From a virus: 43,254 nucleotides of DNA. The position numbers and the translations under genes were made by a program. Location: positions 1 through 43,254 of the IMG/VR virus record IMGVR_UViG_3300029915_000061. One strand, given 5' to 3'. The notes below the pieces were generated by a model. The model was not told the origin of the DNA. It searched no databases and was given only the letters and a program-made list of their open reading frames with translations. Shown one piece after another: positions 2,969 to 14,434 of the stretch (its first letter is position 1; every line of letters begins with the position of its first letter).

Positions 2969-3173
2969 TCTTCCGTCCGCCCTCGGTAGCCGCTTCTTCC
3001 CCCCACGGCACCGCCGGCACATAGTTCTCGGTGTAGCGATACTTTACGTTCGCGTCCCGCCTGCACTCGCGGCAGACAGGATGCGAACGCAGTAGCTCAG
3101 ACGGCGCGAACAGGCAGCAAGCCTTCGTCTGTGTGCATATGCGGCATGTTGCGGTGTACGGGTCGGCGGTCAT
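2958..3173 (-). CDS. Small zinc-ribbon protein (71 aa)
   Basis: The start ATG at 3173-3171 overlaps the upstream TGA (ATGA) and follows an AAAGGGAA ribosome site. Two CxxC knuckles are visible: C10-R-I-C13 and C34-R-E-C37. An extra Cys pair at about 19-20 and a basic tail (GGRKRKK) complete it. This is a classic small Zn-binding, possibly nucleic-acid-binding, phage protein. The second knuckle (PVCRECRRD) resembles the first part of recombination-endonuclease-VII-like zinc fingers, but no catalytic part is present. It is the last gene of the minus-strand early operon. Function unknown. Confidence 0.65.
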   Translation of the reverse strand: MTADPYTATCRICTQTKACCLFAPSELLRSHPVCRECRRDANVKYRYTENYVPAVPWGEEAATEGGRKRKK

Positions 3174-3811
3174 GGTTCCCTTTCTGCCAGCGTAGTAGAC
3201 TGCGCCATCGGCTTCATTTGCAGTACCGCTGCCTTGGCAAACTCAAATGCCGCTACGCGCTCCTCGCACCTCTCGCTTCCATCATCAGGAAACTGCGACA
3301 GGTTGCTCCTTCGGATGCCGATGGACTCCCATTCCTCCAGCGTCTTCCAAAGGCACCCCATACGTACCATGCGCGTTCCGTCCTCAAACAAAATCGCGTA
3401 AACGAGGTACGCATACAGCCCCGAGAACACGCGCAATTGTGCGATTTTCTTCCTGCGCAGGTTGGCCCCGCTCAGGTTGGTATCGCGCAGGTCGGCACAG
3501 CTCAGGTTGGCATCGCGCAGGTCGGCATCGCTCAGGTCGGCCCCGCTTAGGTTGGCACCGCGCAGGTCGGCACCGCGCAGGTAGGCACCGCTCAGGTTGG
3601 CATCGCTCAGGTAGGCACCGCGCAGGTCGGCACCGCTCAGGTTGGCCTCGTACAGGTTGGCACCGCTCAGGTAGGCACCGCTCAGGTCGGCACCGCTCAG
3701 GTAGGCACCGCTCAGGTCGGCCCGTTTCGAAACCGCCTCGACTAGCGATTCTTGGATGGTCGGTAAAGCCGACGTGTAAATACCAGCACCGCAGATGTTT
3801 TTGATGATCAT
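3170..3811 (-). CDS. Pentapeptide-repeat protein with phage C-terminal domain
   Basis: A 213-aa product, start ATG 3811 after GGGAG. From about residue 30 to 117 it is a run of A(D/N)Lxx pentapeptides (ADLSG, AYLSG, ANLSG, ADLRG), which fold as a right-handed quadrilateral beta-helix. Residues about 125-200 are a separate domain with FEDGTRMVRMGCLWKTLEEW, an arrangement I recall from other phage pentapeptide proteins. Some pentapeptide proteins (MfpA, Qnr) mimic B-DNA and bind gyrase; whether this one does is unknown. It overlaps the zinc-ribbon gene by four bases and follows a 97-aa gene. Confidence 0.85.
   Translation of the reverse strand: MIIKNICGAGIYTSALPTIQESLVEAVSKRADLSGAYLSGADLSGAYLSGANLYEANLSGADLRGAYLSDANLSGAYLRGADLRGANLSGADLSDADLRDANLSCADLRDTNLSGANLRRKKIAQLRVFSGLYAYLVYAILFEDGTRMVRMGCLWKTLEEWESIGIRRSNLSQFPDDGSERCEERVAAFEFAKAAVLQMKPMAQSTTLAEREP
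3463..3729 (-). repeat. 15-bp tandem repeat array coding pentapeptides
   Basis: About seventeen near-identical 15-bp units of the type GCTCAGGTCGGCACC (plus strand) sit head to tail, with variation mainly at the gc/gt and t/c positions. On the minus strand each unit encodes one pentapeptide. The units keep both reading frame and period, so the array is coding and not a CRISPR. Its high internal identity makes slippage and copy-number change likely. Confidence 0.85.
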
Positions 3812-3828: not shown

Positions 3829-4122
3829 TTAAACTTCCACCATTGTTACGGGGTAGCCGCGATAGCTTTCCCCTTCGCCAACCAGCATCACACCTGTGTC
3901 ATACCCGCGTGATTTAGCCTCACTCGGAGACATGGGGCGGAATCGAGTGTGCTTCACATCGGCGACAGTCAAAGCAGCCAAACATCCCTCATCGGTGTCC
4001 ATCCACGCGGCTTCACGAACTAATGCAAGGAACTTCTCGGGGTCAATATGTCCGTTGTCATAGATAACAGTTTGGCTGCGACTTAATCCGGCATTCCATT
4101 CCAGCTCCCGAAGATTGCTCAT
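3829..4122 (-). CDS. Hypothetical early protein (97 aa)
   Basis: The start is ATG 4122-4120 (MSNLRELEWN), overlapping the previous stop as ATGA, with a purine-rich GGAGGGAG upstream. A longer same-frame reading to 4359 is only a shadow of the preceding gene. The product is acidic, of mixed alpha/beta look, with no recognisable motif. It has MDTDEGCLAALTVADVKHTR in the middle and YRGYPVTMVEV at the end. It sits in the translation-coupled early operon between a 203-aa unknown and the pentapeptide protein. Function not recognised. Confidence 0.65.
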   Translation of the reverse strand: MSNLRELEWNAGLSRSQTVIYDNGHIDPEKFLALVREAAWMDTDEGCLAALTVADVKHTRFRPMSPSEAKSRGYDTGVMLVGEGESYRGYPVTMVEV

Positions 4123-4730
4123 TTCCCGGCTCCCTCCTCTAGCGCGTCCACGCGGAGCACTAGGTCGGCCACCATCAGCACCAGGTCGCTCACCATCTTG
4201 GCGAGTATGGCGTCGTGTTGCGGAACCTGCGCCTTCTGCACGCACGCTTCTCGTTCTGCTGGAGTCATCGCCATGTATGCTACGTAGCTCGGCTGTGTGG
4301 ATTCGCCGGGCACGGGAGTCGGCTGCTCTACAGCCCAACAACGGATGTAGTGACGGCAATTGGAGACTCCAGAACCTTCCTCATACTCAATACGCTCATG
4401 GCATATAGAGCAGTAAGCCGAGCTTTCCTCTGTGTCTGGCTTTTGAAGCGGCTGCTCTACCTTCACTGGCTCGGCGAGACGTGCGCGTACCCGGTCCCAA
4501 CGGAAGTAACTCTCGCTGAATCCGTACTGGCCACGCTGTAGTTCTTCCCGCACCGCATCCAGCACCTCGTCTATCAAGGCTGGCCGTTCGGCCTCGACTG
4601 CTGCGCGGGCTGCGTTGCGGTACTCATGCTTTGTGTTTTCTGACGGGTGCAAGCTGTCCCACGCAGGTGTGCGCCCAAATGACTCATACGCGGCCTTGCC
4701 GCCCTTCTCGTATCCCACTTGCTCAATCAT
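4119..4730 (-). CDS. Hypothetical early protein with central Cys cluster and C-terminal coiled coil
   Basis: A 203-aa product from ATG 4730 after GGAGAG, overlapping the upstream stop (ATGA). The N-terminal half is helical and charged (EYRNAARAAVEAERPALIDE). Residues about 107-130 carry CSICHERIEY followed by CRHY and CW, a possible Zn-binding knuckle. The last 40 residues (ILAKMVSDLVLMVADLVLRV) form a hydrophobic heptad region, probably for oligomerisation. Many phage early proteins share this helical, Cys-containing build. No enzymatic motif seen. Confidence 0.65.
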   Translation of the reverse strand: MIEQVGYEKGGKAAYESFGRTPAWDSLHPSENTKHEYRNAARAAVEAERPALIDEVLDAVREELQRGQYGFSESYFRWDRVRARLAEPVKVEQPLQKPDTEESSAYCSICHERIEYEEGSGVSNCRHYIRCWAVEQPTPVPGESTQPSYVAYMAMTPAEREACVQKAQVPQHDAILAKMVSDLVLMVADLVLRVDALEEGAGK

Positions 4731-4975
4731 TGCTCTCTCCTCTCAACAAGCCCGTCCACCAGCGTAATGCCGGTGATTTCCTTGAAAATCTGCTTGAACT
4801 TCGGCCCTGGGTGCAACGCTCCAGTCACCAGTTGGTGAATGTACTGCTTGCTTGCCGTCACTCCCCGCGCCTCAAGCCACCGACTGAACTGCGTCGGGCC
4901 CAGCCTGTTGGCGCGGAGCCAGTCCTTGAGCACCGTCTGCGCCTCCGTATGCGTGTAATGCTTGCGATTTCTCAT
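4727..4975 (-). CDS. Small helix-turn-helix DNA-binding protein
   Basis: An 82-aa product from ATG 4975. Residues about 13-55 read as a lambda-repressor-like HTH: LKDWLRANRLGPTQFSRWLE, then GVTASKQYIHQLVTGAL, where SKQYIHQL would be the recognition helix and TGAL the typical turn after it. It has no cleavage or oligomerisation domain, so it would be a Cro-like or modulatory regulator. It starts a sub-block of the minus operon. The 55 bases upstream hold a TTGACA-like hexamer and a perfect inverted repeat, which may be its own control region. Confidence 0.75.
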   Translation of the reverse strand: MRNRKHYTHTEAQTVLKDWLRANRLGPTQFSRWLEARGVTASKQYIHQLVTGALHPGPKFKQIFKEITGITLVDGLVERREQ

Positions 4976-5004
4976 ACTGCAATCGTCCCACTTTCCCCGT
5001 GTAG

Positions 5005-5347: not shown

Positions 5348-5523
5348 TTGCTCTCCTCTTTCTCCGTGCAGCCCAATATCAGTCTGCGTTCCGCATCGCT
5401 GTAGCACCTGTCAAGCTGCGATAGGAAATCAGCTTGGCGCACTCCGTCGGGGCGAAGTACCCGCTCCGGTATCCCGAATCGCTCCGCGTACATTCGCACT
5501 CGCGGGTCGGTCGGTCTAGCCAT
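5344..5523 (-). CDS. Small hypothetical protein (59 aa)
   Basis: A complete frame ATG 5523 to TGA 5344. It starts MARPTDPRVRMYAERFGIPE and ends TEKEESK. It fills the gap between the methyltransferase stop (8-base overlap) and the nuclease start (GTGA overlap), in the tight spacing of the whole operon, which argues that it is real. The product is basic at the N terminus and helical. No family recognised. Confidence 0.6.
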   Translation of the reverse strand: MARPTDPRVRMYAERFGIPERVLRPDGVRQADFLSQLDRCYSDAERRLILGCTEKEESK

Positions 5524-6166
5524 GATGCACCAGGTTCATCGCACCTTGCGCTACAGCGTTGGCGACAGATGCGGGGATGGTCGCGGCGGCTGCGGAGTAG
5601 GCTCGTCTTGCCTTGGACTTGCTTCCAGTTTGAATCATGCCGAACTGCTTCCGGTATTCTCGCTTCTGGTCTGGTGTAATGCCGTGCGTGTCTGCACCTG
5701 ACCCCATTGCAACTCCCTTAACCGCCGAATACGACTCTTTCGGGAAGCAAGCCGGTACCGCGTTCCCCCAAATATGGAATGGGCCGCAGTGGTTGACAGA
5801 CCGACCGACGAACTTTTGCGCTGCTCGGACGTTTTCCATGACATAGGGAACGCCTGATTCTTCGCACAGCATCCGCGTATGGTTGAAGAGTCGCAAGCCC
5901 ATCTCAGGAAACTTGGGGTCAGGGTGAAAGTGCTTCATGCCGTGGACTGAGAACTGTTCGCAGGGGCTGGACGCGCAGATGAAGTCAACCTGCATGGCGC
6001 GTATGTCTGCTACCGTAAGCGCAAGAATATCCTGCAATCGGTAATCAACGCCGGCGGGGATTCCCATATCCGGCATCACGAGGTCAATCGCAATCACGTC
6101 CCATCCTATTGCCAAGAACGCTTGGGACCAGCCTAAACGTCCTGCGAACAAATCGAGGACTCTCAT
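5516..6166 (-). CDS. Compact DNA (cytosine-5-)-methyltransferase
   Basis: A 216-aa product from ATG 6166 (MRVLDLFAG), AGGAG upstream, overlapping the previous stop (ATGA). Motif I is DLFAGRLGWSQAF (residues 5-17), for S-adenosylmethionine. Motif IV is SSPCEQFS with catalytic Cys69. Motif VI is MENV (110-113). A C-terminal TIPASVANAVAQ matches motif X. It should methylate cytosine C5 in DNA. It is much shorter than typical C5 enzymes (about 320 aa or more), with little room for a target-recognition domain, so specificity may be short or relaxed. It probably protects phage DNA from restriction. Confidence 0.85.
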   Translation of the reverse strand: MRVLDLFAGRLGWSQAFLAIGWDVIAIDLVMPDMGIPAGVDYRLQDILALTVADIRAMQVDFICASSPCEQFSVHGMKHFHPDPKFPEMGLRLFNHTRMLCEESGVPYVMENVRAAQKFVGRSVNHCGPFHIWGNAVPACFPKESYSAVKGVAMGSGADTHGITPDQKREYRKQFGMIQTGSKSKARRAYSAAAATIPASVANAVAQGAMNLVHHG

Positions 6167-6246
6167 GGTTTCTCCTGTCCAGCAGCCCCGCACCGTTCGC
6201 AGATGCGCGGGGAGTCGCTCTCGTGGAGGCAGTAGCGGCAGCTCAT
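6163..6246 (-). CDS. 27-aa zinc-ribbon microprotein
   Basis: The frame ATG 6246 to TGA 6163 overlaps both neighbours by ATGA. The peptide reads MSCRYCLHESDSPRICERCG plus a seven-residue tail, with two perfect CxxC pairs (C3/C6 and C16/C19). Overlap on both sides and intact zinc knuckles in only 27 residues make translation likely despite its size. The knuckles would form a minimal treble-clef or ribbon. Partner unknown; the next gene is the methyltransferase. Confidence 0.55.
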   Translation of the reverse strand: MSCRYCLHESDSPRICERCGAAGQEKP

Positions 6247-6987: not shown

Positions 6988-8327
6988 CACTCTCTCCCCT
7001 CAAATGTCAGGTAGTCGCCCCTGAATCGCACGTTGACCGCTCCCACTGGCCCGAACCTCTGCTTGCCGATGATTATCTGGCCCTCGCCTGTAAACGCGTT
7101 CGTATCCGTGTCTACTGGCAGATAGGGCAGAATCACCCCATGCGCTGATTCCTCAAGTGTCCCCGACTCTTTCAGCCCGAACATATTGGGCCTCGCGTTG
7201 ATGTTGCGCCCCTCCGGTCGTGCCATCTGAGACAGTAGAACCGTCGTGACGTTGTACGCCTTGGCAAACTCCCTCAGTTGACCGGCAACCTCGGAAACTC
7301 TATCGCGTGGCTCCCGCTTGCCGCGCACCTTGATAATCTGCGCGTAGTCCACCACGAGCAGCTTGATTCCCAAATCCCTGTGCGCTCTGGTCGCATTGAA
7401 TATCAGGCGGTCAAGCTCAATTCCGCCAGTGTCGGAGATGTGCATAGGCAGCGTCTCAAGTATCCGCAGACCCTCCAGCAAATTCTGCTTATCCGCCAAG
7501 TTCATCAGGTACGGGTCGCGCACCTTCCACGCTGGCATTTCCTGAATCAAACACGCGGTAATGTCGTGCCATGATTCCTTCGTCATTTCTCCGGAATGGA
7601 CATAGGCGGGTGTTCCGCCCAATACCGTGTGCTTGACTACTTGCCGAGCTAGGGTCGTCTTGCCGCGTGAGGGAGGTGCGCCGATTATCCACAACTCACC
7701 CAAACGCATCCCGCCATTCGTCCAGGAATCCAGCTTGTCAATGCCGAACGGTATCAGGTCCGTGACCGTCTCAGGGTGCATCAGGCGGCGTTCCGCATCC
7801 TCGGCCATATCTGCGGCTGAGAAAACGTCCGGTTTGCCTGTGCCTGATTCATCCATGATGGCTGAGACTTCGCCGGCAAGCCATGTGCCTATCTGCAAGC
7901 CCGTCTCCGTCTGCTCGTAGGCTTTCGACTGTAGCAGCGTCCCTAGGTTCACCATGCGCCTGAGTGTCGCCTTGTCCCGCAAGATGCGGATGTAGTCGGC
8001 AATGACCACAGACCGGAACAGCCCTTCCGTGAGCGAGAACAGGAAACTCATTCCGCCGATGGTCTGCAATTCGTGGCGGTTGCTCAACTCGTTCGCCAGC
8101 GTCACCGTGTCCACCACTCCCTCGATAGACCGCATGGCGGCGAAGATGCGGCGGTGTGAATCAAGGCAGAAGTCGTCAGGCTGCAAAGAGTCCAGTTCGC
8201 ACAACCGCTCACAATCGAGCAGTACAGCCCCTAGAATCGTCTTCTCCGCGTCTAGGTTGGCAGGGAGGCATATTTCGCGCACCGATGGCTCTGGCGCGGC
8301 TTCCTGCATCATGTAGTCGTCAATCAC
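6987..8327 (-). CDS. DnaB-like replicative helicase
   Basis: A 446-aa product, GTG start at 8327 overlapping the previous stop (GTGA). Residues about 20-130 match the DnaB N-terminal helical domain (NLDAEKTILGAVLLD). The RecA-like C-terminal domain has Walker A GAPPSRGKTT (216-225), Walker B LLVVDYAQI (323-331), SQMARPEG (366-373) and the DnaB-typical GKQRFGPVG (421-429) near the arginine finger. It should be a hexameric 5'-3' helicase that opens the phage fork. Its loader candidate is directly upstream. No phage DNA polymerase was found, so the host replisome is probably recruited. Confidence 0.93.
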   Translation of the reverse strand: MIDDYMMQEAAPEPSVREICLPANLDAEKTILGAVLLDCERLCELDSLQPDDFCLDSHRRIFAAMRSIEGVVDTVTLANELSNRHELQTIGGMSFLFSLTEGLFRSVVIADYIRILRDKATLRRMVNLGTLLQSKAYEQTETGLQIGTWLAGEVSAIMDESGTGKPDVFSAADMAEDAERRLMHPETVTDLIPFGIDKLDSWTNGGMRLGELWIIGAPPSRGKTTLARQVVKHTVLGGTPAYVHSGEMTKESWHDITACLIQEMPAWKVRDPYLMNLADKQNLLEGLRILETLPMHISDTGGIELDRLIFNATRAHRDLGIKLLVVDYAQIIKVRGKREPRDRVSEVAGQLREFAKAYNVTTVLLSQMARPEGRNINARPNMFGLKESGTLEESAHGVILPYLPVDTDTNAFTGEGQIIIGKQRFGPVGAVNVRFRGDYLTFEGRE

Positions 8328-9166
8328 CGTCCCGCCTCTTTCCGCAGCCGCGCTTGCTCTGCCAGTTGCGCCTGCACGTCTAGCTGGTATTGCGATGGGG
8401 CAGTTGGTTGCGCGGGGAATAGGCTAGTTACATTCAGCGGCTTTCCGAATCTGTCCAGTGGACCAGCGGCATACCCGGTAACGCTCCCAATCCACCGGCT
8501 AGGGCGCTCAGTGTGGTTTACCTCAGACTTGAACCGATTCCGCAGAAACGCTGTGAACTGCTCAATCGTCGTATTCGGTGCCTGCCCAAGCCACATTCCC
8601 AACTGCTTGCCCTCCTGCGGTCCCCAAGGCATCTCGAGTCCCTGATTCTTAGAATCCCAATATCGTTGGATTGCTTCTTTGAATACCTGGTGCCTTGTGT
8701 CGCTCGAAGCCTTTGGCTTTCGAGAAGGCTTTTTAATAGAAAGTGAAACTGAAGATGAAGGGGTTGGTTTTTGCTTAACTAGGGTGGTTGGAATTTGGTT
8801 AAGCAAAACAGGATTTCCGCCCTTAGAACCTGCATCCGCACGTATTTTCCTCAGATATTCGTCCCTGACCATGCGCCGATTGATCACTGCCCCTGTCTCC
8901 TGCTCGCGGTCTGCTACGCCGTTGGTTAGGAGGGTGGTTAGGGTTTGGTTGAACATTTGGTTATCCAAACCGATAGCCCTCGCAATCATTTCATCGCTCA
9001 TAGCCTTACCATTCAGGACGAGAACGCCTCTTCGCTCAGAGTCGTGCATGAGCATGAGCATCTCAAACCACACCCCTCGGTCATGAAAGGAAAGGGACTG
9101 CACTCCCATATCCTTGCGCCAATCGCCGGGATAGAACTGCAATGCAGGTAACTTTTTGTCCTTCAT
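8324..9166 (-). CDS. Replication initiation protein / probable helicase loader
   Basis: A 280-aa product from ATG 9166, AAAGGTGAA upstream. The N terminus (LPALQFYPGDWRKD, then SFHDRGVWFEMLMLMH) is the conserved start of a phage/prophage replication family with a winged-helix fold (DUF1376-like). Residues about 80-120 would form the wing and recognition part (VINRRMVRDEYLRKIRADAG). A low-complexity linker around 130-155 leads to a C-terminal helical domain (WIGSVTGYAAGPLDRFG). Its overlap with the DnaB-like gene supports origin recognition or helicase loading; that specific role is inferred. Confidence 0.8.
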   Translation of the reverse strand: MKDKKLPALQFYPGDWRKDMGVQSLSFHDRGVWFEMLMLMHDSERRGVLVLNGKAMSDEMIARAIGLDNQMFNQTLTTLLTNGVADREQETGAVINRRMVRDEYLRKIRADAGSKGGNPVLLNQIPTTLVKQKPTPSSSVSLSIKKPSRKPKASSDTRHQVFKEAIQRYWDSKNQGLEMPWGPQEGKQLGMWLGQAPNTTIEQFTAFLRNRFKSEVNHTERPSRWIGSVTGYAAGPLDRFGKPLNVTSLFPAQPTAPSQYQLDVQAQLAEQARLRKEAGR

Positions 9167-11726: not shown

Positions 11727-12073
11727 TACTCCCCCCATAGCATCTCCGCAACCGTAGGCGTGGGCAGAACGTAGTCCACGGTTTCAGTCAGCGTGGTGAA
11801 CTTGATGAGGGTGGATGTGTCCAGGAAGCCGAGCATCTCCACCTTTGCGCCAAACTCGATGAGGAACGTCTCCTTGTCCTTCTTGCGGATGGTCACCTCA
11901 GCCTCAGCAGCAGCGTTCACCAAAAGCTGCGCTGGTGCGTAGTGGCTGTAGTCGAAGTGGTAAACCGTGGCTCCGGTTGGAATCGAAAGCTCGGTGTGCT
12001 TCTCGATGAACGTCGCTACCCTGCGAAGCTCTGCCGCGAACTCTGCGTGACTCTGTGCTCTCTCAGTTGCCAT
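11726..12073 (-). CDS. Hypothetical early protein (115 aa)
   Basis: Start ATG 12073 with AAAGGGG upstream; it overlaps the repressor-like gene by 11 bases. The sequence has an N-terminal helix (SHAEFAAELRRVATFIEKH), a beta-rich middle (ATVYHFDYSHYAPAQLLVN) and ends PTVAEMLWGE. No catalytic or metal motif is seen. As the first gene after the putative repressor it may be made early. Function unknown. Confidence 0.7.
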   Translation of the reverse strand: MATERAQSHAEFAAELRRVATFIEKHTELSIPTGATVYHFDYSHYAPAQLLVNAAAEAEVTIRKKDKETFLIEFGAKVEMLGFLDTSTLIKFTTLTETVDYVLPTPTVAEMLWGE

Positions 12074-12305
12074 TTGAATCCCCTTTCTTCGGTGCTGCTG
12101 GTTGCGGGATGCGTACCCAGCGGTCAGGAACCTTGCGGAATCCCAATCGCGTAGCCAGTCCCTCGGTGACAGGTCGCCGTCCGTTCATGACATCATTGAC
12201 GAATTGCGGAGAGAATCCCACATCGCCTGCGACCTTGCGCTGAGACTTTGATTTAACTTTCGTCTCCAGAATCCCCACTAGATGCGCGGTTGAATATGTC
12301 TTCAT
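12063..12305 (-). CDS. XRE-type HTH regulator, repressor candidate
   Basis: An 80-aa product if started at ATG 12305 (MKTYSTAHLVGIL); longer frames to 12323 or 12392 lack ribosome sites too. Residues about 20-58 form an XRE HTH: KSQRKVAGDVGFSPQFVNDVMNGRRPVTEGLATRLGF. Its C-terminal tail (RIPQPAAPKKGDSNGN) is short, so it lacks a LexA-like cleavage domain. There is no Shine-Dalgarno, and a TTGACC/TATCTT promoter puts the predicted transcript start at or next to the ATG, as with leaderless cI of lambda. It probably controls this divergent region. Known CI or Cro equivalence is not shown. Confidence 0.75.
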   Translation of the reverse strand: MKTYSTAHLVGILETKVKSKSQRKVAGDVGFSPQFVNDVMNGRRPVTEGLATRLGFRKVPDRWVRIPQPAAPKKGDSNGN

Positions 12306-12341
12306 GTGAAGAAGATAGCGCATCCGCTGATTAGCGGTCAA
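12306..12341 (-). promoter_or_regulatory. Promoter for the repressor-like gene, probably giving a leaderless mRNA
   Basis: Minus strand: -35 TTGACC (12341-12336), an 18-bp spacer, then -10 TATCTT (12317-12312). Six bases separate the -10 from ATG 12305, so initiation would fall on the start codon. The spacer holds the inverted repeat CCGCT-N4-AGCGG, in a place where a bound protein would block polymerase. Confidence 0.5.
12324..12337. promoter_or_regulatory. Candidate operator (inverted repeat)
   Basis: CCGCT-GATT-AGCGG is a 5-bp-arm inverted repeat lying between the -35 and -10 of the minus promoter. On the minus strand it contains GCTAATCAGCG, an 11-base word that recurs on the plus strand at 16776-16786, just upstream of the terS promoter. 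Confidence 0.45.
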
Positions 12342-12356
12342 GAGTAAATCGCAATA

Positions 12357-12375
12357 ATTCTGTGAATATTCTGTG
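12357..12375 (+). promoter_or_regulatory. Direct-repeat element CTGTG-N6-CTGTG
   Basis: ATTCTGTG occurs at 12357-12364 and again at 12368-12375, an 11-bp period, so both copies would face the same side of the helix. The same CTGTG-N6-CTGTG spacing appears in the other control region at 16539-16554. Likely a protein-binding site; which regulator uses it is unknown. Confidence 0.4.
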
Positions 12376-12411
12376 GAAAACTTTTCAGGCAATGTTTACG
12401 CTTTCGTGCGC

Positions 12412-12666
12412 ATGGTCTTAATTGCACTACATGGCGGAATCGTATGCGTTACGGTCACTCAGGAGGTACGACTCATATACGAATCACACATCCTGGCCTA
12501 CCTCGAACGCATCGCAACCGATGTAGCCAATCTCAGGCGCGACCTGGACACCGATCGACGCGACGCGAACGCTGCAAACCAGTTAGCCATTTCCCAGCTT
12601 GCGAAACTCCCCCCAGCGCAAGCGGGAGCCGGGTTCGCCAGCCGCCGCGCGCCGATGCCTTCTTGA
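12412..12666 (+). CDS. Short plus-strand helical protein in the control region; start uncertain
   Basis: The frame runs from GTG 12373 or ATG 12412 to TGA 12666 (84 aa from 12412). The coding-like part starts at about codon 22 (IYESHILAYLERIATDVANL), a charged coiled coil followed by an Ala/Pro-rich tail. Neither the ATG nor the GTG has a ribosome site. The only strong Shine-Dalgarno (AGGAGG, 12461-12466) is eight bases before an ATA codon at 12475. The gene is isolated on the plus strand between minus-strand blocks, where a cro-like or early regulator would be expected, but no HTH is seen. Confidence 0.5.
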   Translation: MVLIALHGGIVCVTVTQEVRLIYESHILAYLERIATDVANLRRDLDTDRRDANAANQLAISQLAKLPPAQAGAGFASRRAPMPS

Positions 12667-12712
12667 TTGGTTGATTAGTTGGGGAATTATATACTTGACT
12701 CCCTTTCATCGT

Positions 12713-13060
12713 CTAGCGCCTCCATCCAGACCCGGCGCGGTCAGTTTCACGCACTTCTATGGCTGTGAGAAAAAGTTCGCTTAGGTTTTCGCGGAGGTAC
12801 TCGACGATATGCTCACATGTGGGATTTTCAAGGCCGGGAAGTTCATTGAGGGGCTGATGGTCCAAGCCAAGGATTATAGGATCAGCAATCGCCTTCACTT
12901 CGGCATAGTCGATAATCCAGCCAACCTCGTTCACTTCGCCAGACACCTCAAGGCGAATCTGGTAGCGATGGCCGTGAAGCCTATGGCACTTGTGATCTGT
13001 TGGCACTTTGGGGAGCCAATGGGCACAGTCGATTGAATACTCAAGGAAGATGTACTGCAT
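12713..13060 (-). CDS. queD: QueD-like 6-carboxytetrahydropterin synthase
   Basis: A 115-aa product from ATG 13060 (MQYIFLEYSIDCAHW) with GGAGG upstream; the longer frame to 13327 runs inside the neighbour. Zinc ligands are His14, His29 and His31, and CHRLHGHRY carries catalytic Cys25. DYAEVK (51-56), LDHQPLN (67-72) with Asp68/His69, NPTCEHI and the late Glu of IEVRET complete the family pattern. It makes 6-carboxy-tetrahydropterin from dihydroneopterin triphosphate, the first dedicated step to preQ0. It overlaps the dpdA-like gene by 20 bases. FolE, QueE and QueC are not in the window, so the host must supply those steps. Confidence 0.92.
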   Translation of the reverse strand: MQYIFLEYSIDCAHWLPKVPTDHKCHRLHGHRYQIRLEVSGEVNEVGWIIDYAEVKAIADPIILGLDHQPLNELPGLENPTCEHIVEYLRENLSELFLTAIEVRETDRAGSGWRR

Positions 13061-13694
13061 GAATGCCTCCAAACATCTCGCTTTGTACGACCCGCTTACG
13101 CTGGCCGGTAGATTCCTCCAAATAAGCACAGAGGCCGCGATATTGCACCTGATCGCCGCGCATCCATCCGGTCCCGTCCACGCTTTCTGCCCCGGCGTCA
13201 TGACAATCCCAGAGACGCCGATAAGTGTTGACTCTGCCGATATGCACGCGCCTAAACTCCCTGCACCACATCGCCATCGTTTGCCACTTCCACTTTGTAG
13301 AGCCACCAACAAACACCACGCTAGCATTATCGGGAACGTCTTTCGGTGTCATCCCATCTTGAACTGCGAATGCGAGCGGCCATCCATATTTCAGAGCTAT
13401 CGGCGAGTAGGATTCCCAACGTCTAAGAGTTTCAGCGCGGTTGCCAACCATATCAGGAACCAAGCACCAAAGCGGCCTTTGTCCACCCAGGAGCGCCCAG
13501 TCGAGAAGCTCAATCCACCCATCTTCGTCCCAGTCATCATCGTGCCCAAAAGCCCCGTTATCAAGACCGAATGCCAGGAACTCGTATGGCCCAGTCTGTG
13601 CTCCGGGAGAATAGAGGTGACCAATCTTCCCCTTGAATTTACCGGCGAGGTAACCGACTTTAACCCCGGTGTTGTTGGCCACCATCACGAGCAT
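13041..13694 (-). CDS. dpdA: DpdA-like transglycosylase for 7-deazaguanine DNA modification
   Basis: A 217-aa product from ATG 13694 (a second Met lies three codons in). It resembles tRNA-guanine transglycosylases reduced to the phage DpdA type: GHLYSPG, FGLDNGAF (Asp45), LVPDMVGNRAETL (Asp81), AFAVQDGMTP, VVFVGGSTKWKW, VHIGRVNT and ESVDGTGWMRG (Asp173). In TGT enzymes two Asp residues act as nucleophile and general base. Known phage DpdA proteins replace guanine in DNA with preQ0 or derivatives and block restriction. The overlap with queD strongly supports that pathway here. The exact base product cannot be read from sequence. Very similar proteins are often left as hypothetical. Confidence 0.8.
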   Translation of the reverse strand: MLVMVANNTGVKVGYLAGKFKGKIGHLYSPGAQTGPYEFLAFGLDNGAFGHDDDWDEDGWIELLDWALLGGQRPLWCLVPDMVGNRAETLRRWESYSPIALKYGWPLAFAVQDGMTPKDVPDNASVVFVGGSTKWKWQTMAMWCREFRRVHIGRVNTYRRLWDCHDAGAESVDGTGWMRGDQVQYRGLCAYLEESTGQRKRVVQSEMFGGIHAVHLP

Positions 13695-13779
13695 TCTTAT
13701 CTGCTTTCCGTTTTCGCTTTTTGCCAGCTTTACTTTTTGGTTTTGGCCTGTCGGCCAGCCGCAAGGTGGCCTGACGCAG

Positions 13780-13810: not shown

Positions 13811-14434
13811 CTAGGCTTCCCGCTTCGGTGCGAGCGGAAGAAACTTAGCCATTCGTGCCGCAAAGTAGATGATGCGAAGGTACTCCTTGATTTCAGCAGG
13901 TGTGTATCCTTGCGACTTCCCGAGGTGTACCGCATTTTCCTTCCACCATGCGAAATCGTGGCGCTCGCAACCGATTTGCAATTCAGTGCGGCTGCACATG
14001 GTGACGGAGTGTTTCGAGCCTTGGACATAGAGCGGGGATGTTTCCCAAGCGTCGCCGAACACCTGCGCGTTGCCGAACACCCGAGCGTCGCCGTACACCC
14101 AAGCGTCGCCGGACACCCGAGCGTCGCCGTACACCCGAGCGTTGCCGAACACCCGAGCGTTGCCGGACACCCGAGCGTCGCCGTACACCCCAGCGTTGCC
14201 GAACACCCGAGCGTCGCCGTACACCCAAGCGTTGCCGAACACCCGAGCGTTGCCGAACACCCGAGCGTCGCCGAACACCCGAGCGTCGCCGTACACCCAA
14301 GCGTCGCTGCCCAAATAAGCGGACGGTTCGACGGTCGCAGTTTTGTATACCCATCCACCGCCGTTTGAGTGTTGATGCCAGTCGTTCGGCTCTGAGCCGT
14401 GGACGCAATCTAACGCTTTCTGCGGAACTTCCAT
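13811..14434 (-). CDS. Hexapeptide-repeat (left-handed beta-helix) protein
   Basis: A 207-aa product from ATG 14434, AAGGAG upstream. Residues about 37-128 repeat the hexad G(D/N)A(R/W)V(F/Y) some fifteen times, which predicts a left-handed parallel beta-helix. The C-terminal 75 residues form a separate helical domain (CERHDFAWWKENAVHLGKSQ). The acyltransferase catalytic His of typical hexapeptide enzymes is not evident, so it is probably a scaffold or binding protein. A similar-length frame on the minus strand (13798-14358) and frames on the plus strand are shadows produced by the repeat. Confidence 0.8.
   Translation of the reverse strand: MEVPQKALDCVHGSEPNDWHQHSNGGGWVYKTATVEPSAYLGSDAWVYGDARVFGDARVFGNARVFGNAWVYGDARVFGNAGVYGDARVSGNARVFGNARVYGDARVSGDAWVYGDARVFGNAQVFGDAWETSPLYVQGSKHSVTMCSRTELQIGCERHDFAWWKENAVHLGKSQGYTPAEIKEYLRIIYFAARMAKFLPLAPKREA
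14046..14310 (-). repeat. 18-bp tandem repeat array coding hexapeptides
   Basis: About fifteen 18-bp units of the type CACCCGAGCGTCGCCGAA (plus strand) lie head to tail, varying at cgtt/cgtc and gaa/gta/gga. Each unit encodes one GNARVF-type hexad on the minus strand. Because the period is a multiple of three, all six frames stay open, which explains overlapping spurious frames here. Not a CRISPR: the units abut without spacers. Confidence 0.85.

Follow-up and report, generated by a model that had tools for sequence, protein, structure and literature searches.

An overlapping gene pair in a phage genome, contained in a single IMG/VR virus record of 43,254 bp (the window, analysed here over its whole length), raises the questions of what the two proteins do and how their genes came to lie there. 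Phage DNA hypermodification is a main counter to restriction, and the route by which unrelated phages acquire it is unclear. A sequence-only reading of the window had paired QueD with a compact transglycosylase and proposed that they form a minimal, host-reliant cassette for 7-deazaguanine modification of phage DNA. Our analysis supports this proposal and adds what that reading missed, the status of the pair as transposon-type cargo. The pair is likely a minimal 7-deazaguanine DNA-modification module carried by a non-autonomous IS1595/ISXO2-type element (Table 1), with the enzymatic activity, the inserted base, and the transposition of this particular copy being inferred.

Table 1. Location of the gene pair and of the element remnants surrounding it in the window.
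Feature	Coordinates	Strand	Remark
Compact DpdA/TGT-superfamily protein, 217 aa	13041..13694	(-)	predicted 7-deazaguanine DNA transglycosylase
queD, 115 aa, 6-carboxytetrahydropterin synthase	12713..13060 (ATG 13060, stop 12713)	(-)	PF01242
Right terminal inverted repeat (TIR), IS1595-type element, 19 bp, AGTCAAGTATATAATTCCC	12682..12700	(-)	homology to L003/L005/L002 ends here
Truncated element leader mini-ORF (...RPKPKSKAGKKRKRKADKNARDGGQQHRG)	13660..13764	(-)	overlaps dpdA start; N-terminus lost

The overlapping arrangement of a QueD and a TGT-like gene held at the positions first proposed, with the start of queD lying over the stop of dpdA and 20 bp shared by the two ORFs. Strong purifying selection on both genes (dN/dS 0.03-0.08 for dpdA and, where computable, 0.04 for queD), together with the recurrence of the pair in many contigs, shows that this is not a chance arrangement. 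The QueD protein matches PF01242 (E 7.4e-24), and the NCBIfam QueD equivalog TIGR03367 is still its best-scoring model (E 2.8e-24), although the 85.3 bits fall below the cut-off of 89.25. Both the CxxxHGH motif and the DH dyad of the PTPS fold family are present. Of the active site described previously, His14, Cys25, His29, and His31 were confirmed, but the dyad is D67/H68 and not 68/69. A QueD-like gene adjoining compact dpdA in contig L006 (7564-8001) has kept HGH but neither the catalytic Cys nor the Asp/His dyad; its product possibly has a different pterin role or a structural role.

No match to the 217-aa protein was found in Pfam, including the tRNA-TGT model PF01702, or in NCBIfam. Single-sequence searches of PADLOC and of PDB sequences returned nothing useful, and a 10-member profile of the compact family was negative against PDB sequences. 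In PHROGs, the protein falls into phrog_15826 (E 3e-31), annotated as ‘unknown function’, and depositors have labelled several of its relatives in isolate phages ‘DpdA-like tRNA-guanine transglycosylase’. At least 352 relatives were confirmed in viral contigs. Profile-profile alignment (hhalign) of 105 compact relatives with 92 canonical phage DpdA ORFs gave a match over 135 columns (Prob 97%, E 1.2e-10), which pairs the motifs LDNGAF/LDSGAF, PDVVAD/LDVIGD, VGG/LGG, the VHxGRVN segment/VHGFG segment, and ESxDGTGW/YSVDSTSW. Before both families were widened, the comparison with just four canonical DpdA sequences had been weak (E 3e-4 and 2.5e-3), and aligning the compact family directly to the single E. 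coli TGT sequence failed to produce a match.

The AF2 model of the 217-aa protein is a TIM barrel (pLDDT 89.4, pTM 0.87). TGT chains and the TGT-family Cap10 (9ntn) make up much of the top 50 in a PDB fold search, and a viral fold search returned phage queuine transferases among its best matches. Generic TIM barrels in the PDB score about as well as the TGTs, and the fold alone is thus not specific for TGT. D45, D81, Q112, G131, K136, H151, R154, and D173 are invariant in all members of the 105-relative alignment that have a residue at the respective position, in agreement with the previous designation of Asp45, Asp81, and Asp173 as conserved acidic sites. D45, D81, Q112, G131, and D173 are found at the ends of successive strands, in the same order as TDSGGF, FDEC, IIQG, VGGLAVGE, and FDCVMP in E. 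coli TGT, with the residue equivalence being inferred. By homology, the protein is a member of the phage DpdA/TGT superfamily. The HMM and structural comparisons with TGT that the sequence-only reading had suggested both revealed similarity, leaving its TGT interpretation unrefuted. The small size of 217 aa, in which it saw a possible reduced or divergent type, is a family trait and not a truncation. A truncated canonical DpdA was rejected because the short length is conserved across the compact family.

Two further arrangements of the compact gene were observed in isolate phages. In Escherichia phage SHIN8 (L014, 5720-6312), it is split into two overlapping ORFs beside canonical DpdA and que genes, as if, possibly, it were decaying where the full pathway exists; phiG7 matches the same part of the compact protein as SHIN8. 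In the unrelated Erythrobacter phage R6L (L007) and ReqiPine5 (L008), compact dpdA is located near a phosphoadenosine-phosphosulfate-reductase-like gene.

The neighbourhood of compact dpdA points to preQ0 synthesis. In viral contigs, the gene lies on one strand with queD or queC, which it either overlaps or directly adjoins, in either gene order. QueD (40/93 loci) and QueC (23/93 loci) are its commonest neighbour families, and one of the two genes is directly adjacent in 26 of the 51 relatives that are non-redundant at 90% identity. On the compact-family tree, at least 14 changes of the que-neighbour state are needed, and the association has therefore recurred instead of being inherited a single time. 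Whole-record scans of 40 records detected PTPS (QueD family) proteins above the cut-off in 22, QueC in 10, and radical-SAM proteins in 5, whereas FolE occurred only in three, all with canonical DpdA nearby. Partial que sets without folE are usual (queD, queC, queD+queC, or queC+queE-like), and QueD is the sole que gene in the records of the window, L004, and L005. Scanning the window record for QueC, radical-SAM (QueE), and FolE proteins identified none, and the remaining pathway steps must therefore come from the host. Two more of the original claims thus held, namely that only QueD and the transglycosylase are visible, and that the cassette is minimal and host-reliant, partial sets without folE being the rule among relatives. 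In nine genomes of bacteria or archaea that harbour compact dpdA, QueC was found in 7/9 and TGT in 8/9. This distribution of que genes fits phages that supplement one step and borrow the others, and singleton DpdA phages with modified DNA despite having no preQ0 genes are already known (PMC8306585, PMC6884629). Still, about half of the compact relatives lack a que gene in their neighbourhood, and compact dpdA occurs next to canonical DpdA in three phages, so the exact substrate of the compact protein may differ.

In the pathway that we propose, QueD would convert the product of host FolE into 6-carboxytetrahydropterin; its family assignment is shown, and its activity is inferred. Host QueE and QueC would then yield preQ0 or a nearby intermediate. 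The compact DpdA, whose substrate and activity are likewise inferred, may use a TGT-type mechanism to replace guanine in phage DNA with this base. D173 is the candidate nucleophile and D45 the candidate acid/base; fold and invariance are shown for these residues, and their roles are predicted. The swapped base would shield the phage DNA from host restriction.

DNA identity between the window phage and unrelated phages is confined to a cassette of ~1.08 kb. By blastn, the sole match of the window to the 47.9-kb contig L005 spans 12682-13751 (77%) and the sole match to L003 spans 12679-13759 (99.6%), and L002 is collinear with the window and diverges at 12678. In these three comparisons, homology stops on the right where the 19-bp TIR ends, a sequence that the window contains only once (chance expectation 0.01 at <=3 mismatches). 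In L005, perfect inverted 19-bp TIRs lie on both sides of the cassette (7856-9014, 1,159 bp), which contains, from left TIR to right TIR, an element-specific basic mini-ORF followed by dpdA-queD, and no PF12762. The window copy has lost the left TIR, and what is left of the element is the right TIR and a portion of the mini-ORF. We thus interpret the module as the cargo of a mobile insertion cassette without a transposase, which is intact in the L005 phage contig and present in the window as a derivative.

An IS1595 transposase was sought in the window, L003, and L005 records and is absent, in line with a mobile insertion cassette. An expected hallmark that is missing is the 8-bp target duplication, which does not flank the L005 element. 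Because of this and of the missing left TIR in the window, transposition of this copy is inferred from sister elements. Membership in an IS1595-type cassette is accordingly claimed, as the likely interpretation, for the element family, and for the window copy only as a derivative. A relaxed search for TIRs near other compact dpdA genes gave convincing copies only in the clade of the window, L002, L003, and L005. Most family members are therefore outside this element, which explains the mobility of this pair but not how the compact family as a whole has spread. Neither the L005 element nor an autonomous element had a blastn match in isolate phages, and the L005 element had none in plasmids. In L003, a 31-bp direct repeat, CCTAAAATTGGATGCGCAGTCGAAAGACGAG, is found on both sides of the left-truncated cassette (flanking 3895-4999) and is too long for an IS1595 target duplication.

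The sister elements show the features of transposition more fully. At least 119 viral-contig stretches contain the exact 19-mer TIR, exact TIR pairs are always in GGG...CCC orientation (22/22), and 49 of the 67 sister element copies with flanks have perfect 8-bp target duplications (TSDs). A homologue of the DDE_Tnp_IS1595-type transposase is encoded in 32 of 58 non-redundant elements and lacking in 26; the one scanned in L213 matches PF12762 (E 6.8e-47) as well as PF12760. At ~30 sister-element loci, we found the short and basic leader ORF (LDxITDVVLAYRPKPKSKxxKKRKRK), which is intact in L005 (47 aa) and, in both L003 and L005, extends over the start of dpdA. In L216 (6951-8225) and L269 (10495-11733), the leader forms an in-frame N-terminal fusion with a C5-methyltransferase, a hint that the mini-ORF possibly helps to express or target the cargo. 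The L005 and L199 elements share their TIRs (96-100%) and 135 bp of the leader (81%) but have different passengers, which indicates that the chassis is constant and the cargo exchanged.

The passengers of this element family are rich in DNA-modification genes. A Pfam scan of 41 passengers, each the longest non-transposase ORF of its element (one replaced by hand), identified nine N6/N4, eight C5, and one D12 DNA methyltransferase and one Mom. DNA methyltransferases or Mom thus account for 19/41 passengers, compared to 5/108 genes flanking the same loci (p=9e-9), among which are phage portals, capsid, terminase, and integrases besides the DNA methyltransferases. The value of 19/41 is approximate, as it presupposes that each protein was counted only once and the census relied on exact 19-mer matches in an incomplete scan. 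This enrichment supports a DNA-modification role of dpdA-queD independently of homology, although activity is inferred and not shown. Mom represents the adenine-modification family of phage Mu. In L225, an IS1595-type element flanked by a perfect 8-bp TSD carries a Mom-family gene (11987-12547, minus strand; PF25680 2e-18) as its only cargo.

Three other explanations were considered. The one that survives best, though we regard it as unlikely, is that ordinary homologous or illegitimate phage recombination moved the pair and that the TIR edge is a coincidental breakpoint. In its favour, the left ends of the cassette differ among the window, L003, and L005, the direct repeat of L003 stands in place of an 8-bp TSD, and L004 has the dpdA and queD genes without TIRs. 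Against it are the perfect inverted TIRs around the L005 cassette with its element-specific leader, and the shared right boundary of homology at the TIR end in three comparisons. A second alternative, for which we see very little room, is that the compact protein is a phage tRNA-guanine transglycosylase acting on tRNA, with QueD boosting the queuosine precursor. Matches to tRNA TGTs among the TIM barrels and the Asp/Asp/Gln/Gly/Asp site order of E. coli TGT would fit. However, the closest profile is that of phage DpdA and not of tRNA TGT, PF01702 was unmatched in the Pfam scan, neither the CxCxxC zinc motif nor the C-terminal region known from TGT is present, and the element family carries DNA-modification genes. 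Still less probable is nucleobase-protein conjugation or counter-defence resembling the established deazaguanylation (PMC11996544) by Cap9/Cap10 of type IV CBASS: Cap10 is among the best PDB fold matches and queC adjoins the compact gene in many relatives, but the linked QueC of L032 passes the TIGR00364 cut-off as a genuine QueC, far better than as QatC, the partner in the window is queD, and the cargo of the elements is DNA modification. PADLOC (2023 library, in which the presence of a Cap10 model is unconfirmed) assigned no family to queD or compact dpdA.

The preferred reading, a DNA-modification module on an IS1595-type element, has several known counterparts. Phage DpdA/DpdA2 (Hutinet 2019, PMC6884629), of which singleton groups have already been noted in that study, share profile-profile homology, active-site motif order, and preQ0-gene linkage with the compact protein. 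The latter differs in its size (~200 aa), the absence of the C-terminal region, its escape from the Pfam TGT model, a retained Gln-Asp-Gly motif, and partial que sets, and its modification is inferred only. Sonali gp81, GreaseLightnin gp55, and Aoka gp40 of actinobacteriophages belong to the same compact family (~30% identical) but have no adjacent queD or queC, and Sonali additionally encodes canonical DpdA and the full pathway. Similar to IS1595-family transporter IS and mobile insertion cassettes (tIS, MIC), the elements have TIRs, passengers, 8-bp TSDs in sister copies, and an IS1595 transposase in autonomous copies, whereas here they carry a phage gene pair for DNA-base modification, preceded by an element-specific mini-ORF. 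In the literature that we read, IS1595-type cargo is found on integrative mobilizable elements, among them a lincomycin-resistance element (PMC5704250). Cap9/Cap10 also combine QueC-like and TGT-like enzymes, with Cap10 being a fold match, but the window has queD for queC and a DNA-modification context.

DpdA, QueD, and IS1595 transporter elements are thus each known separately, and compact DpdA-like proteins have been named in phage annotations. The literature that we searched, which was partial and did not include the founding IS1595 paper (Siguier 2009), contained no IS1595-type cassette tied to phage DNA modification or DpdA; methyltransferase cargo of IS1595 elements may have been noticed by others earlier. 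A bolder reading, towards which we lean only slightly, is that IS1595-type elements in phages are a mobile anti-restriction platform, often without a transposase. Its constant chassis would be the ~22-bp TIRs plus, in many copies, the basic leader mini-protein, and its plug-in cargo would comprise C5, N6/N4, and D12 methyltransferases, Mom, and a two-gene 7-deazaguanine module, represented by the compact DpdA clade. If true, unrelated phages could swap DNA chemistries as plug-in cassettes. The two-gene module on a discrete 1.1-kb mobile cassette with defined ends offers a vehicle by which the spread of anti-restriction chemistry can be tested. Moreover, a likely function can be inferred for a large family of ‘unknown function’ (phrog_15826, at least 350 viral loci), and the compact DpdA, as a candidate DNA transglycosylase of very small size, could be of use in base-swapping tools.

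Finally, three other minus-strand genes of the window were recorded. A second candidate DNA-modification gene (5516-6193), with no TIR nearby, encodes a C5-cytosine methyltransferase-like protein (PF00145 8e-7). A YdcK-type beta-solenoid protein with YGDARVFGNA repeat units is encoded at 13811-14434; its DNA repeats match many unrelated phages, and the matches of a 5-kb region to phages by blastn were restricted to these tandem repeats. The third gene (3170-3811) encodes a pentapeptide-repeat-like protein with ADLSGAYLSG repeats, as judged by sequence only.
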